Positions 20,897 to 30,080 of a DNA stretch of 34,491 nt are shown in pieces (the first letter of the stretch is position 1; every line of letters starts with the position of its first letter). This DNA is from an uncultured Trueperaceae bacterium. GTDB lineage: Bacteria; Deinococcota; Deinococci; Deinococcales; Trueperaceae. Made by a program: the position numbers and the translations under genes. The DNA lies in contig CAJXWR010000001.1 of NCBI GenBank assembly GCA_913062675.1, positions 1 to 34,491 on the forward strand, read 5' to 3'. A model generated the notes under the pieces. That model was not told where the DNA came from. It saw only the letters and a list, made by a program, of their open reading frames with translations, and did not search any database.

Positions 20897-20902
20897 TATG
20901 TT
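20897..20902 (+). promoter_or_regulatory. -10 box TATGTT, AbiE-like module
   Basis: TATGTT lies 7 nt before the ATG at 20910. An earlier in-frame ATG (20898) falls inside this box and has no ribosome-binding site, so 20910 is preferred. Confidence 0.55.
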
Positions 20903-20938
20903 CCACTTTATGAGGAACACGACGTTTTCTGGAACACG
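20899..20938. repeat. TGTTCC/GGAACA repeats across the module's start
   Basis: TGTTCC (20899-20904) and GGAACA (20914-20919) form an inverted repeat with a 9-bp spacer over the -10/start. A second GGAACACG (20931-20938) repeats the copy at 20914-20921, 17 bp apart. It is a candidate autoregulatory operator. Confidence 0.42.
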
Positions 20939-21959
20939 TGCGTTGCGGCGTGCCGTCGGCATCGTCGAGGAACGGCTCCCCCCACGATGGCGCATTGAAG
21001 CCAGCCTGACCCAACGCGAACCCCACATGACCATCGTGTCACCCGACGGCCAACGAGGAACGCTGGCCCTCACGGCGAAGGCGCACGTCGCTCCCCGTGA
21101 CGTGGCTGGCCTCAAGCAACGATTCGAAGATCGCGCACGCACCACGTTCCTCTTCGCCCCCTTCCTCAGCCCTCGGACCCGCGTACTTCTTACCGAAGCG
21201 GGCATCCACCATGCCGACGCCACAGGAAATCTCCGTCTGGTCATGACGGTTCCTGGCATCTTTCTCGAGGGACGCGGAGCGGATCGGAGTGAACACACGT
21301 CACCGAGGACCCTGAAGAGCTTGAAGGGTGCGGCAGCAGGACGCGTGGTGCGCGCGCTCGCGGACTTTCTACCCCCGTTCGGAATCCGACAACTCGCCGA
21401 GGCTTCCTTGACACCGGTTTCGACGGTGTCGCGCGTCGTCGACCTCCTCGATTCGGAAGCCCTCTTGACGCGCGACGCGAAGAAACGAATCGAGGACGTC
21501 GACTGGGTTCACCTACTCGAGCGTTGGATTGAGGATTACAGCCTCACGGGAAGCAATCTCGTCGTTTCCCACCTCGAGCCCCGAGGCGTACCTGCGTTGC
21601 TGAACCACCTATCGCGTCTCGACCGATATGCCGTTACGGGGTCTTTGGCAGCCACCGGGGTCACCTCCGCACGACTCGCCATGGTGTTCGTCGAGGATGC
21701 GATCGAGGCGGCAGAAATCCTCGAGCTCGAGCCCGTAGATGATGGAGCCAACGTGTGGCTGATCGAACCCTTCGATGCCGTCGTCTTCGATCGAACACGT
21801 TGGATTACCCCCGCGTCACGGAGTACGCCTATCGTCACAGCCGCTCCGACTCAGGTCGTGGCAGATCTTTGGACGAGTCCCGGGCGTGGACCCCAAGAAG
21901 CCTCGGCCCTCATCCAGGAAATGCGGAGATCCGAGAATGCATGGAGGACCGACCCCTGA
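20910..21959 (+). CDS. Winged-helix AbiEi-like antitoxin/regulator
   Basis: 349 residues. An N-terminal domain (1-140) holds GIHHADATGNLRLVM (99-112) and a GADRSE motif, typical of a widespread, mostly unstudied actinobacterial family. A winged-helix domain follows (about 143-190: GRVVRALADFLPPFGIRQLAE, then STVSRVVDLLDSEALL). The C-terminal part (200-349, YAVTGSLAATG, GANVWLIEPFDAVVFDRT) resembles the AbiEi C-terminal domain. The next gene overlaps by 23 nt and encodes a nucleotidyltransferase, as in type IV AbiE systems, where the first protein is a DNA-binding antitoxin that represses the operon. That role is inference here. Confidence 0.68.
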   Translation: MRNTTFSGTRALRRAVGIVEERLPPRWRIEASLTQREPHMTIVSPDGQRGTLALTAKAHVAPRDVAGLKQRFEDRARTTFLFAPFLSPRTRVLLTEAGIHHADATGNLRLVMTVPGIFLEGRGADRSEHTSPRTLKSLKGAAAGRVVRALADFLPPFGIRQLAEASLTPVSTVSRVVDLLDSEALLTRDAKKRIEDVDWVHLLERWIEDYSLTGSNLVVSHLEPRGVPALLNHLSRLDRYAVTGSLAATGVTSARLAMVFVEDAIEAAEILELEPVDDGANVWLIEPFDAVVFDRTRWITPASRSTPIVTAAPTQVVADLWTSPGRGPQEASALIQEMRRSENAWRTDP

Positions 21960-22758
21960 CCCAGCGTACGTAGGCGCACGCACCGTCCTGCTTGACGTGC
22001 TCGAGTATCTCAACGTCCATCGCGATTCGGTCATTCTGGTTGGAGCCCAAGCCATCTATCTGCACGTGGGCGACGACGACCTCGCCATCGCTCCACATAC
22101 GACCGATGGCGACCTGGTGATCGACCCCAATCGTCTCCTCGATGAACCACGCTTGAGCACGCTGCTGGCGCAGGCTGGCTTTACCCTTGCGATTCGCCCC
22201 GGCACTTGGCGACGGCATGACGTTCCCATCGACCTTCTCGTTCCTACGGCGCTCGCAGGGCCCGGGCGGCGAGGCGCGAGGCTCGGACCTCACGGAAACG
22301 ACGTGGCGCGACGCGCGGCTGGTCTCGAAGCGACTCTCGTGGACCATGCCCACATGCGGATTCGTTCACTCGAACGAACCGACGTGCGCGAATTCGATGT
22401 TCGCGTTGCAGGTGTCGCTAGCCTCCTCGTTGCCAAGGTTCACAAGCTCGCAGAGCGCCAACACGATGTCCGAAGACTCGAGGCGAAGGACGCGCTCGAC
22501 GTCCTCCGACTCTTGCGGCACAGTCCGACAGCGGATCTTGCACGAACACTCGCACGCCTCGAACGCGATCCGCTCGCAGGCGTGTCGACGACGGAAGCAA
22601 GAACGTTGTTGGCCGCCATGTTTGGAAGCCGCGATGGCGTTGGTGCATCGATGGCCGCTCACGCGACCGTCGGACTCGAGAATGCAGACACGGTCAGGCA
22701 GTCATGCGAAGTCTTGACGAAACGATTGATGAACGCCTGGGGCGCCCAACGAGACTAG
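21937..22758 (+). CDS. AbiEii-like nucleotidyltransferase toxin candidate
   Basis: 273 residues. Nucleotidyltransferase-like core: ILVGAQAIYLHVG (33-45) replacing the GG-S/A motif, then TTDGDLVID with D57 and D59 as metal-binding acids, then VPIDLLVP with D99 as a third acid. A C-terminal helical part has LLVAKVHKLAERQ and EAKDALDVLRLLR, recalling the K...D basic segment of AbiEii. AbiEii toxins act as GTP-using nucleotidyltransferases, bacteriostatic or abortive on phage infection. The ATG at 21937 has GGAG 8 nt upstream and overlaps the first gene by 23 nt. It is a toxin by analogy; the target is unknown. Confidence 0.65.
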   Translation: MHGGPTPDPAYVGARTVLLDVLEYLNVHRDSVILVGAQAIYLHVGDDDLAIAPHTTDGDLVIDPNRLLDEPRLSTLLAQAGFTLAIRPGTWRRHDVPIDLLVPTALAGPGRRGARLGPHGNDVARRAAGLEATLVDHAHMRIRSLERTDVREFDVRVAGVASLLVAKVHKLAERQHDVRRLEAKDALDVLRLLRHSPTADLARTLARLERDPLAGVSTTEARTLLAAMFGSRDGVGASMAAHATVGLENADTVRQSCEVLTKRLMNAWGAQRD

Positions 22759-24848: not shown

Positions 24849-24921
24849 CGACCTTCTTGGCGTAGGTTGCGTGCAGCTCGGCGGGTGCGGGGTGCCGACC
24901 GACCCGAGCGTGGACGCGCGA

Positions 24922-24927
24922 TACACT
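24922..24927 (+). promoter_or_regulatory. -10 box TACACT of the UvrD/PcrA gene
   Basis: TACACT lies 9 nt before the ATG at 24937, giving a leader of only a few nt, without a Shine-Dalgarno. Confidence 0.5.
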
Positions 24928-24936
24928 GACCGGCCG

Positions 24937-27174
24937 ATGCCCGAGCCTGGAATCCTCGACGTCCTCAACGAAGAACAACGCGCCGCCGCCGCGCACCTGA
25001 CCGGGCCCGCCCTCGTCCTGGCTGGAGCCGGATCGGGCAAGACGCGTACGGTGGTGCACCGTATTGCGCACCTCATGGCGGAGCACGAGGTGTACCCGCA
25101 GCAGATCCTGGCCGTGACCTTCACGAACAAGGCGGCAGGGGAGTTGCGGGAGCGGGTCGAGACGCTCGTGGGACCCACCGCGCGGGACGTCTGGGTGTCC
25201 ACCTTCCACTCCGCCTGCCTGCGCATCCTGCGGAGTTACGGGAGCGCAATTCAGCTCGACCCGGGCTTCGCAATCTACGACGATGGCGATCAACTCGACC
25301 TGCTCAAGGAGGTGCTCGGCACGGTGGTGGGCATGCAGGACGCCAACCCGCGCGTGCTGCGCGCGGTCATCGACCGGGCCAAGTCGAACCTTTGGACGCC
25401 CGCCCTGCTTGCGCAGGAGGGCGCGAAGCGGTACGGACACGCGGTGAGCGGCGTGGATCTTGAGCAGATCGTGGAGGTGTACGAGCGGTACCAGGCGAGG
25501 CTCGAACGCGCCAACGCCGTGGATTTCAACGACATTCTGGGTCGGACGGTGGAGTTGTTCACGCTGCACCCCGAGATCCTCGAGCGGGTGCAGGACCGCG
25601 CGGTGTTCGTGCACGTCGACGAGTACCAGGATACGAACGCGGCGCAGTACCGACTCACGCATCTCCTGAGCGAGAAGTACCGCAACCTCATGGTGGTGGG
25701 TGATCCCGATCAGGGCATCTACGCCTTCCGGGGGGCGGACATTCAGAACATCCTCGATTTCCAGCGCGATTACGAGGATGCGGTCACCTTCCGGCTCGAG
25801 AGCAACTACCGCAGCATCCCGAACGTCCTCAAGGTCGCGAATGCGGTGATCGAGGCGAACACGGGACGGCTTCCCAAGGAGCTCCGTCCGGTGAAGGAGG
25901 ATGACGCACCGGTCCGCATCTACCGGGCGGCTGATCACCGCGCGGAAGCGGATTTCGTGGCGCGCATGGTGGAGCAGGTGTTGCAGGAGCGGGGCGGGGA
26001 TTTGAACCAGTTCGCGGTGCTGTACCGGACGAACAGTCAATCGCGCGCGCTCGAGGAGTCGCTGCGCCGCGCGGGGCTCGAGGCACGCATCGTGGGGGGC
26101 GTGGGGTTCTACGAGCGGCGTGAGGTGAAGGATGCCTTGTCGTACGCGCGCGCGGCGTTGAACCCGGGCGATGACGTGTCCTGGCGGCGAATCTTGAATC
26201 GGCCGAAGCGGGGGGTGGGGAAGACGAGCGAGGAGAAGCTTGCGGGGTGGGCGGCACGGCAACGCCAACCGTTCAGTGAGGCGGTCCGCCGCGCGGGCGA
26301 GATCGTGGGCGGCACCGCGGCGGAGAAGCGCATCGCGGAGTTCGCGGCGTTGATGCAGGACTTGAGTGAAGCGGCGGACGTCATGCCCGCCGGGCAGTTC
26401 GTCGCGCACCTGCTCGACGCGAGCGGCATGGTGCGCGCCTTGCGTGAGGAGAACAGTTTCGAGGCGCAGGGGCGCATCGACAACCTTGGCGAGCTGGCGA
26501 GTGCGGTGGAGGAATGGGAGTCGAGCGAGGGCGGCACGATTCAGGCGTTCCTCGACGAAGCGGCCTTGATGGCGTCGGTCGATGACCGGGCGGTCGCGGC
26601 GGCGAACGCGGGCGACGTGCCCGATGACGCGGTGACGCTCATGACGCTGCACAATGCGAAGGGGCTCGAGTTTCCCGTGGTGTTCCTCGTGGGCCTCGAG
26701 GAGGGCTTGCTTCCGCACCGCAGTTCGACGGGCAGCCTGCAGGAGATCGAGGAGGAGCGGCGGTTGCTCTACGTGGGGGTGACGCGCGCGCAGGATGCGT
26801 TGTACCTGGTGCATTGCGAGTCGCGCATGACGTTCGGCCGGACCGAACCGGCGCGCCCGTCGCGTTTCCTGGAGGACGTACCGCGCGATTTCCTGCAGGA
26901 GATCGACGCGTTCGGTTCCGAGCTCGACCGTTCGGTGCGTACACCGTCCCGACCGAAGGTCAGCTGGCCAGCCGCGCGCAGTGCAGCGGCGGGCGACGCG
27001 CCAAAGGCGGGGGGTGGCTACCGGGGCGGGGAGAAGGTGCGGCACCCGAAGTACGGCGTGGGGACGGTGGTGGGCGTGTCGGGTGAGGGCGCGAAGATGG
27101 AGTTGACGGTCGTGTTCGACGGGGCAGGCGCGAAGCGGTTGCTCGCCAAGTTCGCGAACTTGCAGGACGCTTGA
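24937..27174 (+). CDS. UvrD/PcrA superfamily 1 DNA helicase
   Basis: ATP-dependent 3'-5' DNA helicase for excision and mismatch repair and replication-fork rescue; 745 residues. Walker A is GAGSGKT (30-36), motif Ia is TFTNKAA, motif II is DEYQDTN, followed by GDPDQGIYAFRGAD, LESNYRS, TLMTLHNAKGLEFPVVFL and YVGVTRAQ. Motif III has Gly where most have Ser (DQGIY). The C-terminal region ends in a Tudor-like domain (GEKVRHPKYGVGTVVGV) as in PcrA. The length agrees with deinococcal UvrD. Start at 24937 is favoured over an earlier GTG by the promoter and by N-terminal alignment. Confidence 0.96.
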   Translation: MPEPGILDVLNEEQRAAAAHLTGPALVLAGAGSGKTRTVVHRIAHLMAEHEVYPQQILAVTFTNKAAGELRERVETLVGPTARDVWVSTFHSACLRILRSYGSAIQLDPGFAIYDDGDQLDLLKEVLGTVVGMQDANPRVLRAVIDRAKSNLWTPALLAQEGAKRYGHAVSGVDLEQIVEVYERYQARLERANAVDFNDILGRTVELFTLHPEILERVQDRAVFVHVDEYQDTNAAQYRLTHLLSEKYRNLMVVGDPDQGIYAFRGADIQNILDFQRDYEDAVTFRLESNYRSIPNVLKVANAVIEANTGRLPKELRPVKEDDAPVRIYRAADHRAEADFVARMVEQVLQERGGDLNQFAVLYRTNSQSRALEESLRRAGLEARIVGGVGFYERREVKDALSYARAALNPGDDVSWRRILNRPKRGVGKTSEEKLAGWAARQRQPFSEAVRRAGEIVGGTAAEKRIAEFAALMQDLSEAADVMPAGQFVAHLLDASGMVRALREENSFEAQGRIDNLGELASAVEEWESSEGGTIQAFLDEAALMASVDDRAVAAANAGDVPDDAVTLMTLHNAKGLEFPVVFLVGLEEGLLPHRSSTGSLQEIEEERRLLYVGVTRAQDALYLVHCESRMTFGRTEPARPSRFLEDVPRDFLQEIDAFGSELDRSVRTPSRPKVSWPAARSAAAGDAPKAGGGYRGGEKVRHPKYGVGTVVGVSGEGAKMELTVVFDGAGAKRLLAKFANLQDA

Positions 27175-27245: not shown

Positions 27246-28055
27246 GTGAACGCCAAAGCCATCGTCGTGACGTCGGGTAAGGGCGGCGTCGGCAAGACCA
27301 CCACCACGGCCAACGTGGGGGCCGCACTCGCCAAACAGGGTGAGAAAGTGGCCGTCATCGATACCGACGTGGGCCTGCGGAACCTGGACGTCGTGATGGG
27401 GCTCGAGGGCCGCGTGGTGTACGACCTGATCGACGTGTTCGAAGGGTCCTGCAAACTCAAGCAGGCGTTGATTCGCGACAAGCGGGTGGAGAACCTGCAC
27501 TTGATCGCAGCTTCACAAACGAAGGACAAGAGCGCCCTGTCCGAGGCGCGCATGCAGGAAACGGTGCGCATGCTGCTCGAGGACGAGGGGTTCGACCGGG
27601 TGATCATCGACAGTCCCGCCGGCATCGAGTCGGGCTTTCAGACGGCCGCCTCGGCTGCGGAGGGTGCGCTCGTCGTGGTGAACCCCGAGGTGAGCAGCGT
27701 GCGGGATGCGGATCGCATCATCGGCCTGCTCGAGGCGCGCGAGGTGACCGAGGTGCGCCTGATCGTGAACCGTTTGCGCCCCAACATGGTGGAGCGCGGC
27801 GACATGCTTGAGGTGGACGACGTCCTCGAGATTCTCGGCATCAAGTTGATTGGCATCGTGCCGGAGGATGAGAAGATCCTCGTGTCCACGAACCTGGGTT
27901 CGCCTGCAAGTCTCGATGAGGACAACCAGGCGGGTGAGGCGTTCCGCTCGATCGCGAAACGCATTCGCGGGGAGGACGTGCCGTACCCGTCGCTCGGGGA
28001 GGACAAGGGTGGCCTGTTCGGTGGTCTGCGCAGGTTGTTTGGTGGGGGCCGCTGA
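27246..28055 (+). CDS. minD: MinD septum-site ATPase
   Basis: Deviant Walker A ATPase (SGKGGVGKTTTT, about 10-21) that binds the membrane and places the division site with MinE. The 269 residues show DTDVGLRNLD (38-47), a Walker B-like VIIDSPAGIE and a C-terminal amphipathic membrane helix (GGLFGGLRRLFGG). GTG at 27246 with GGGAGG upstream. No minC lies upstream; the first open genes are minD, minE and a third, unusual gene. The last base of its TGA is the first base of the minE ATG. Confidence 0.96.
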   Translation: MNAKAIVVTSGKGGVGKTTTTANVGAALAKQGEKVAVIDTDVGLRNLDVVMGLEGRVVYDLIDVFEGSCKLKQALIRDKRVENLHLIAASQTKDKSALSEARMQETVRMLLEDEGFDRVIIDSPAGIESGFQTAASAAEGALVVVNPEVSSVRDADRIIGLLEAREVTEVRLIVNRLRPNMVERGDMLEVDDVLEILGIKLIGIVPEDEKILVSTNLGSPASLDEDNQAGEAFRSIAKRIRGEDVPYPSLGEDKGGLFGGLRRLFGGGR

Positions 28056-28288
28056 TGTTCGGTTGGTTCCAACGCAAGCGCAGTAAGGACAAGTTGAAGG
28101 AACGCCTCAAGTTGGTGTTGAGTTACGACCGGGCGAAATTGACGCCGGGTCGCATGGAGGACTTGAAGGCGGAGTTGCTCGAGGTGATCGCCAAGTACTT
28201 CCCGGCCGAGGATTCGGCGTACGACGTGCGTGTGGAGCAGCAGGGGGAGCGCATGGTGTTGATCGCCAACCTCCCACTCGAAAATTGA
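28055..28288 (+). CDS. minE: MinE, topological specificity factor
   Basis: 77 residues. It stimulates the MinD ATPase and drives pole-to-pole oscillation. N-terminus MFGWFQRKRSKDKLKERLKLVL carries a hydrophobic membrane-targeting start and the MinD-binding helix (KERLKLVLSYDR). The C-terminal part (about 35-75) is the dimerising domain. The ATG overlaps the minD TGA by one base, so it is translationally coupled. The third gene follows after 4 nt. Confidence 0.93.
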   Translation: MFGWFQRKRSKDKLKERLKLVLSYDRAKLTPGRMEDLKAELLEVIAKYFPAEDSAYDVRVEQQGERMVLIANLPLEN

Positions 28289-28292
28289 GGGT

Positions 28293-29006
28293 GTGAGCAC
28301 GTCCTCTCGCGATCCCCTGCGCGTTCTCGTGGCCGAGGGGGATCTGGCCGAACGGGATTTGCTGGACGTGGTGTTGAGTGCCGGGGCGTTCGACGTGTCG
28401 TTCGTTTCCGATGGGCGGCAAGCCTTGGCGCGCCTGAAGGAGGACGCGCCGGACGCGTTGATCGTGGCGCGTAACGTGGCTGGCGTACCGGGGGATGAGG
28501 TGTGCGCGCGGGTGCGGCGCGTGCCGCGGCTCGCATCCATGGTGCTGGTGTTGATTGATGATCCCGAGGGGGAATTGGGGTTGTCGAAGGCGCAGCGCGC
28601 CTTGGCGGAGCGGTTGGGTGTGGATTTGATCGTGCCGCGTCCCTTGGGGGACAAGAACCTCGTGGCGCGCATCGAGGCGTTGCACGCCGAGCGGACGCAA
28701 ACCCCGCAGCGTGGGGTGCAAATGACGGGCGAATGGCGTGCGTTGGACGTGAACCCCGGTCCCGGCGGGGTGGACGGGGCGTCCTCGGCTGCACCGCTCG
28801 CGGCCAACACGCAAGGGGGTCGCGTTGGCGAGGAGCGCGAGGTGCGGGAGGTGGATGCCGCGTCGCTGCATCAACGCGTGCTCGACCTCGAGGCGCAGGT
28901 CGAGGCGTTGGCGAGGGAGAACGATGCGTTGCGCGAGGCGCTTGAGAAAGCGGAGAGCGAGCGGGAAGCGGGCGATGAACGACGGTGGGGTCGCTCAGGT
29001 CGTTGA
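28293..29006 (+). CDS. Degenerate receiver domain plus coiled coil, in minDE operon
   Basis: 237 residues. Residues 8-130 resemble a CheY-like receiver (LRVLVAEGDLAERDLLDVVL, then DALIVARNVAGVPGDEV). The phospho-acceptor position (59) is Ala, one N-terminal acid is Gly, and the usual KP near 116 is RP, so phosphorylation is unlikely. A linker (140-185) is Gly/Ala-rich. Residues about 190-226 form a heptad coiled coil (LHQRVLDLEAQVEALARENDALREALEKAE). GTG 28293 lies 4 nt after the minE stop, with overlapping GTGTG. The role is unknown; its position points to division-site placement or polar anchoring. Its last 12 nt overlap the convergent HxlR gene. Confidence 0.8.
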   Translation: MSTSSRDPLRVLVAEGDLAERDLLDVVLSAGAFDVSFVSDGRQALARLKEDAPDALIVARNVAGVPGDEVCARVRRVPRLASMVLVLIDDPEGELGLSKAQRALAERLGVDLIVPRPLGDKNLVARIEALHAERTQTPQRGVQMTGEWRALDVNPGPGGVDGASSAAPLAANTQGGRVGEEREVREVDAASLHQRVLDLEAQVEALARENDALREALEKAESEREAGDERRWGRSGR

Positions 29007-29384
29007 AGCCGATTCCCCGTCGCGCGTAACGGCGGGCGGTGCGTGCGTACTGTGCAAGTGCAGGACCGACCAGGTGTGAATCGCATCGATCACCTCGCGG
29101 AGGCCTTCCCCCGCTGCGGTGAGTCGATATTGGGGCCGCCCTTGCGCGTCGTCGTGCGTGGCGCGTTGGACGAGTCCGAGCGTTTCGAGTCGGGTGAGGC
29201 GATCGCGTAGCGTGCTGGGGTTGCATCCACCGACGGTGCGGCCGAGTTCGTTGAAGCCGCGAGGCCCATCGAGGAGAACCGCGATGATGTGCAGCACCCA
29301 CTTTTCCTGCAACACGCAAATGCCGCGCGCGGCGGGTTGCTGGGCGAGGTTCAACGCGGAATGGTCGGGCGTGCACGCGGCCAT
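28995..29384 (-). CDS. HxlR/DUF24-family winged-helix regulator
   Basis: 129 residues. Wing-helix core: CVLQEKWVLHIIAVLLDGPRGFNELGR (about 23-49), the recognition helix STLRDRLTRLETLGLVQR (57-74) and GRPQYRLTAAGEGL as the wing. Three Cys (C4, C23 and C54) could sense thiol-active electrophiles or oxidants, as in several DUF24 members. Leaderless ATG 29384 (TAGCCT, 6 nt). It is divergent from hpf, 168 bp apart. Its target is not visible; the VOC/MhqO-like gene is a family-typical target but lies 25 kb away. Its 3' end overlaps the pseudo-receiver gene by 12 nt. Confidence 0.88.
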   Translation of the reverse strand: MAACTPDHSALNLAQQPAARGICVLQEKWVLHIIAVLLDGPRGFNELGRTVGGCNPSTLRDRLTRLETLGLVQRATHDDAQGRPQYRLTAAGEGLREVIDAIHTWSVLHLHSTHAPPAVTRDGESASTT

Positions 29385-29552: not shown

Positions 29553-30080
29553 ATGAACATCTACCAGGTGATCGGGCGCAACATCGACGTGACGGACGCA
29601 ATGCGGACGTACGCCGAGGACAAACTCGAGAAGCTCAACCGCTTCAATGACCAAATCGTCGATGCGAAGGTGGTCATGTCATACAACGAGCGGGTGGGCG
29701 GTCAACCCGCGAAGGTCGAGGTGCAAGTCAACGTGCCGAACGGCATGGTGCGCGCCGAGGAGCGGGGGCCGGATCACTACGGAGCGGTCGACCTCGTCGT
29801 CGACAAGCTCGAGCGGCAACTGAAGAAACTCAAGGGCCGGCAGGTCGCCAAGCGTGGCGAGGAGAAGCCCGAACCGGTCGTCGAGGAAGCGGAGGAGGAA
29901 GCGCCGCGCATCGTGCGGACGAAGCGGCACGTGATGCGTCCCATGGCGCCCGAGGATGCGGCGATGGAGATGGATGCGTTGGGTCACGACTTCTACGTGT
30001 TCCGCAACGTCGACACCGACCAGGTGGCCGTCATCTACCTGCGGGAGGATGGGCATTACGGGGTGATCGAACCCGCCTGA
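29553..30080 (+). CDS. hpf: Ribosome hibernation promoting factor, long form (HPF)
   Basis: Binds the 30S decoding region and dimerises ribosomes into 100S particles in stationary phase or stress. The 175 residues consist of an N-terminal S30AE domain (1-100: MNIYQVIGRNIDVTDAMRTYAEDKL onward) and, after an acidic Glu/Pro linker (105-120), a C-terminal dimerisation domain (HVMRPMAPEDAAMEMDALGHDFYVFRN). This is the long form, which works without RMF. GAAAGGGG is the Shine-Dalgarno. The leader hairpin is upstream and a clear terminator follows. Confidence 0.95.
   Translation: MNIYQVIGRNIDVTDAMRTYAEDKLEKLNRFNDQIVDAKVVMSYNERVGGQPAKVEVQVNVPNGMVRAEERGPDHYGAVDLVVDKLERQLKKLKGRQVAKRGEEKPEPVVEEAEEEAPRIVRTKRHVMRPMAPEDAAMEMDALGHDFYVFRNVDTDQVAVIYLREDGHYGVIEPA

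Follow-up and report, generated by a model that had tools for sequence, protein, structure and literature searches.

The minDE locus and its third gene

The window analysed here is the whole stretch of 34,491 nucleotides from contig CAJXWR010000001.1 of an uncultured Trueperaceae bacterium (assembly GCA_913062675.1). It carries minD and minE, followed on the same strand by a gene for a protein with a receiver-like domain and a coiled coil, referred to below as the pseudo-receiver (Table 1). The initial annotation had given the limits of this open reading frame, its GTG start 4 nt past the minE stop (28288) and the identities of minD and minE, all of which were confirmed. The pseudo-receiver gene and hxlR converge, and their 3' ends share 12 nt (28995-29006). 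Elsewhere in the window, at 20898-22758, two ORFs on the same strand overlap, the second being nucleotidyltransferase-like; judged by eye, they may form an AbiE-like toxin-antitoxin pair.

Table 1. Genes around the pseudo-receiver locus and parts of the encoded protein (positions in the window)
Feature	Position	Strand	Basis
uvrD/pcrA helicase, conserved upstream neighbour	24871..27174	+	Pfam, synteny
minD	27246..28055	+	CbiA/ParA/MinD Pfam matches; conserved C-terminal LRRLFGG-type tail
minE	28055..28288	+	PF03776, E 2e-19
Pseudo-receiver/coiled-coil protein gene (237 aa), GTG start	28293..29006	+	ORF and translation, homologues, purifying selection in relatives
Receiver-like domain, residues ~8-136, Ala59 at phospho-acceptor position	28314..28700	+	Foldseek, VIA-align, residue tallies
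Disordered, fast-evolving linker, residues ~140-176	28710..28820	+	pLDDT mostly <50; dN/dS in relatives
Long helix/coiled coil, residues 178-231	28824..28985	+	model helix; heptad pattern
Short basic C-terminal tail	28986..29003	+	alignments; strict motif scan
HxlR-type regulator, conserved convergent neighbour	28995..29384	-	PF01638, synteny
hpf, ribosome hibernation factor	29553..30080	+	Pfam

Architecture of the protein

As a single sequence, the window protein matches the Response_reg profile weakly (E 6e-6, under the Pfam cut-off), and PF00072 is matched by 16/16 aligned relatives. An AlphaFold2 model built on 17 natural sequences consists of a (beta-alpha)5 domain with a pLDDT of ~95, a disordered linker (residues 140-176) and a single 54-residue helix (178-231). 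Comparison with canonical solved receivers by Foldseek and VIA-align gave Z ~18 over 120 residues. Profile, relatives and model agree with the receiver-like fold that had been proposed initially. The coiled coil placed behind it is likewise borne out by the model helix, which shows a heptad pattern with an Asn at one core position.

In most members the alignments show a tail of the form (R/K)GLFGRR, whereas the window copy ends in ERRWGRSGR, starting at the helix end. MinD proteins of the same genomes mostly end in LRRLFGG or LRKLFGG, and this C-terminal end is the usual place of the MinD membrane-targeting helix. The resemblance between the two kinds of tail suggests, at the level of sequence, that the pseudo-receiver tail may dock to the membrane. 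A strict form of the tail motif, searched as a degenerate DNA pattern, matched the pseudo-receiver alone in four of the eight genomes scanned and had no match in the other four; the idea of a sorting motif common to other proteins was therefore dropped.

Loss of the phosphorylation site

At the active-site positions of the window protein D12 is replaced by Glu, D13 by Gly, D57 by Ala, T87 by Asp and K109 by Arg. Among 25 distinct members the Asp57 position holds Ala in 19, Ser in three and Glu in three. Asp, which would make a close homologue phosphorylatable, was looked for at this position and occurs in none of the 25, and the alanine first read at the phospho-acceptor position of the window protein stands. 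Asp is likewise found at the D13 position in 0/25, the Thr87 position is mostly Ala, and at Lys109 there are 13 Lys, 11 Arg and one gap. The loss of acidic and Lys residues noted at the outset is accordingly real in part; in part it is conservative (Glu, Arg), and many relatives keep the Lys. Two residues past the lost Asp, 21/25 members carry D or E, compared with 0/14 receiver paralogues from Deinococcota.

These paralogues, of which most are stand-alone proteins and three belong to longer frames of f4 genomes, were picked as the next-best profile scores. They keep Asp13, Asp57 and Lys109 in 14/14 cases and Asp12 and Thr87 nearly always, figures that describe intact receivers and not all receivers of the phylum, given this choice and the exclusion of three proteins with degenerate sites (L132, L133 and L135). 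The latter are short receiver-like proteins of the phylum in which the active site is incomplete; they may be additional, unrelated pseudo-receivers.

Because the Asp is lost in all 25 members, its absence is a property of the whole family and not an error of one draft genome. Glu at this position, found in three members, may mimic a permanently active state.

Distribution and selection

When 111 Deinococcota genomes were searched with a profile, with the full-length group set at >160 bits, full-length matches were found in 28/39 Trueperaceae genomes and in 0/72 others; the lower-scoring matches inspected were ordinary receivers. A match in G106 that resembled a broken copy proved to be a canonical receiver paralogue. 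In a scan of named genomes, 16/17 loci were pseudo-receivers, from records titled Trueperaceae, Deinococci or Deinococcota bacteria. Conservation of the gene beside minDE, which had been proposed for Deinococcota, is thus recurrent within Trueperaceae and does not extend to full-length matches in the other 72 genomes.

Relatives share 23-38% identity with the window protein, and the receiver-linker-coil-tail anatomy is still kept. For close pairs of relatives, which stand in here for a window copy that has no close enough relative, dN/dS was 0.04-0.37 in the receiver, 0.09-0.32 in coil plus tail and ~0.3-1.4 in the linker. The receiver and the coil plus tail are under purifying selection, the linker much less so, and the linker looks like a tether. 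With 25 distinct homologues of this anatomy and such constraint on the receiver, the gene stands well clear of a chance ORF. Since the Asp is lost family-wide, the paralogues keep it and both ends are under purifying selection, the window protein is, as judged from sequence, a member of a true pseudo-response regulator family.

Mapped onto a MinD+MinE tree, presence and absence of the gene take ~6 changes including the outgroup boundary, two of which are forced by well-supported branches. G001, which lies inside the genus of the window's genome, lacks the gene, and several losses, uncertain in number, are the likeliest reading. In G015, the sister of G012 on this tree, the copy (L124) is ~160 aa long and ends before the coil, with neither coiled coil nor tail. 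It adjoins a trmFO-like gene and hxlR/hpf, not minDE, and the minE contig of this genome ends in a transposase-like ORF.

The lost active site, the patchy presence in Trueperaceae and the truncation in G015 would also be expected of a response regulator decaying without function. We regard this as highly improbable, because in the relatives receiver, coil and tail are all under purifying selection, a promoter motif is conserved (see below) and the anatomy is kept down to ~27% identity.

Linkage to minDE

The pseudo-receiver gene adjoins minDE in 25/26 distinct loci checked, G015 being the exception. The order uvrD-minD-minE-pseudo-receiver-hxlR-hpf is conserved as a block in most relatives examined, often extending to a rhomboid and a diacylglycerol-kinase-like gene. 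As the whole block is conserved and unrelated neighbours are equally syntenic, the adjacency to minDE carries limited weight. Several genomes retain minDE but do not have the gene, and in several without it hpf is the next same-strand gene after minE. Gene order here depends on the family: a rodA-like gene comes after minE in the f2-f4 genomes examined (L051, L053-L055, L057, L058, L060 and L144).

In 13/16 named relatives (L099-L111), where the gene lies further from minE, the motif GCTANCNT is found 15-19 nt before the ATG; its chance figure of 0.002 per 20 nt serves as a guide, the motif having been defined after viewing the upstream sequences. It contains a TANNNT -10 element, and such elements next to the ORF drive leaderless genes in Deinococcota (PMC12340547). 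The gene is therefore predicted to have its own leaderless promoter in these 13 relatives. Upstream of the window copy and of L112, L113 and L114 the motif is absent. The distance from minE to the start is 4 nt in G002 as in the window, and ~25 nt in G022. Operon coupling in these cases accordingly looks like a local state. The initial annotation had read the 4-nt spacing as a sign of shared function: the spacing is real, and the conclusion is weakened by the predicted promoters, the synteny, the G015 copy and the minDE-positive genomes without the gene.

The same observations bear on whether the protein is an accessory of the Min system, one that would bind MinD or MinE and tune the MinD ATPase/membrane cycle or recruit a client to the MinD gradient. 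Its position directly downstream of minDE (only 4 nt from minE in two genomes, the window's and G002), the likeness in kind between its GLFGRR tail and the LRRLFGG-like tails of MinD, and the joint absence of minC, minE and the pseudo-receiver gene from G007, the sole well-assembled genome without the two min genes, are consistent with such a role. Several minDE-positive genomes do without the gene, however, 13/16 relatives have their own predicted leaderless promoter, the G015 copy stands apart from minDE and is truncated before the coil, and unrelated neighbours are equally conserved. A function in the Min system is plausible but weakly supported, and we consider the accessory role a possible, not a probable, explanation.

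The locus had further been described as a minC-less operon, which holds at the locus only: a gene with a MinC_C match above the family cut-off is found in this genome on a different contig (G000:C4:53565), and minC was found in 39/41 genomes searched, with or without the pseudo-receiver. A Pfam search of the window protein gave no MinC match. The position after minDE with no local minC had led to the suggestion that the protein replaces MinC as an inhibitor of FtsZ. With minC present elsewhere in the genome, and in 39/41 genomes regardless of the pseudo-receiver, this is very unlikely, the least probable of the explanations considered.

Weak association with type IV pili

The presence of the gene was compared with that of MreB, DivIVA, PilT and MglB, each marker standing for a specific idea, and PilM was added to confirm PilT. 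A link to rod shape could not be read from MreB, which is universal and hence uninformative, and one to DivIVA was discarded as its presence pattern does not track the gene. Of all the markers compared, PilT and PilM alone showed a pattern. Among 27 genomes at least ~90% complete, 18 have both gene and pili, none the gene without pili, six pili without the gene and three neither (Fisher p = 0.029, uncorrected for shared ancestry or for the markers tried, with hand-assigned labels and 9% contamination in G012). Two of the three pilus-less genomes are small. The well-assembled G001, G006 and G007 lack PilT, PilM and the pseudo-receiver gene. G007 is a Trueperaceae genome, 96% complete, in which minE, minC, DivIVA, PilT and PilM were all undetected, as was the pseudo-receiver gene.

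These data would fit a polarity or assembly factor of the type IV pilus that works like FrzS of Myxococcus xanthus, its proximity to minDE being inherited gene order. Among well-assembled genomes the gene occurs only in pilus-positive ones; G001, of the same genus, carries minC and minE yet lacks the pilus markers and the gene alike; and both the architecture and the residue signature are FrzS-like. The events are few, though, and six genomes (G009, G012, G016, G024, G105 and G106) have PilT and pili without the gene. The neighbourhood examined contains no pilus genes, and MglB was undetected in the window's genome and in G003 and G004 of the same genus, all three gene-positive. A FrzS-like relay through MglA can therefore not be general, and an MglAB relay was rejected on these grounds. 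The pilus association is weak and a lead only, and a pilus factor seems to us rather unlikely.

A putative scaffold

The predicted absence of phosphate switching, the gained coil and the conserved tail together make a scaffold the most likely role. We tentatively favour, at somewhat less than an even chance, a Trueperaceae-specific pseudo-response regulator that, much as FrzS does, acts independently of phosphorylation as a scaffold, probably a dimeric one. In this scheme the receiver fold would bind a partner protein, the coiled coil would dimerise, and the tail may dock to the membrane or to another protein. Our best guess for the site of action is the cell poles or membrane, where the protein would serve either Min-dependent positioning or the type IV pilus machine; in the window, co-expression with minDE and translational coupling to it are probable. 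The early view of the protein as a protein-interaction module is supported to this extent, as a putative scaffold.

A bolder and distinctly unlikely version would make it a new class of polarity adaptor, a phosphorylation-independent receiver/coiled-coil dimer that places or licenses the type IV pilus machine, or some other client at the pole, with the help of the MinDE gradient, and that arose in Trueperaceae independently of FrzS.

Pseudo-receivers are common, yet their switching is still largely unexplained (PMC12632262). The family described here is real and conserved, and no description of it was found in the open-access literature searched, where nothing relevant appeared on a comparable third gene with minDE or on Min work in Truepera either. 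In MinE-type systems, MinD has few known partners other than MinC and MinE. The scaffold proposed above combines a conserved loss of the phosphorylation site, a coil and a tail with a patchy presence against constant neighbours, which yields testable hypotheses on Min- or pilus-linked polarity in Deinococcota.

Comparison with known systems

MinC and MinJ/DivIVA are MinD partners with a polar or membrane location. No sequence relation between them and the pseudo-receiver was seen; minC is a separate gene here, and the DivIVA pattern follows its own course. In TadZ/CpaE an atypical receiver domain is fused to a MinD/ParA-type ATPase, whereas here receiver and MinD are separate genes and MinD has a MinE partner.

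The nearest receiver sequences found in the phylum are canonical Deinococcota receivers (mostly stand-alone, 130-160 aa), which share with the family a domain end of the PL.GK(D/N)(F/L)R type. Unlike the Trueperaceae family, they keep Asp13, Asp57 and Lys109, and the stand-alone ones have no coiled coil.

The closest architecture described is that of FrzS, which combines an N-terminal pseudo-receiver with a C-terminal coiled coil and acts on type IV pili; its pseudo-receiver binds SgmX, and its coiled coil serves polar localisation (PMC11580455). FrzS has Ala53 at the Asp57 position and an acid, Asp55, two residues on (PMC1974792). The Trueperaceae family likewise mostly has Ala at this position with an acid two residues on, has lost Asp13 and Thr87, and runs from pseudo-receiver to C-terminal coiled coil to end tail (PMC1974792, PMC11580455). 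It differs in a coiled coil of ~54 residues compared with ~258 in FrzS, in gene context, and at Tyr102, which FrzS needs and which is here Leu in 18, Val in five, Ile in one and Tyr in one of 25 members. In sequence it is no nearer to FrzS than to canonical receivers: DivK, PleD and CheY-type chains, along with other solved receivers, score equal or higher. As the switch Tyr is missing and FrzS is not its closest sequence, we class the family as FrzS-like and not as FrzS. By analogy, it would work like FrzS without being a FrzS, and the recurrence of the signature, Ala at the Asp site with an acid two residues on, outside FrzS would suggest that the path from switch to scaffold can be taken more than once.
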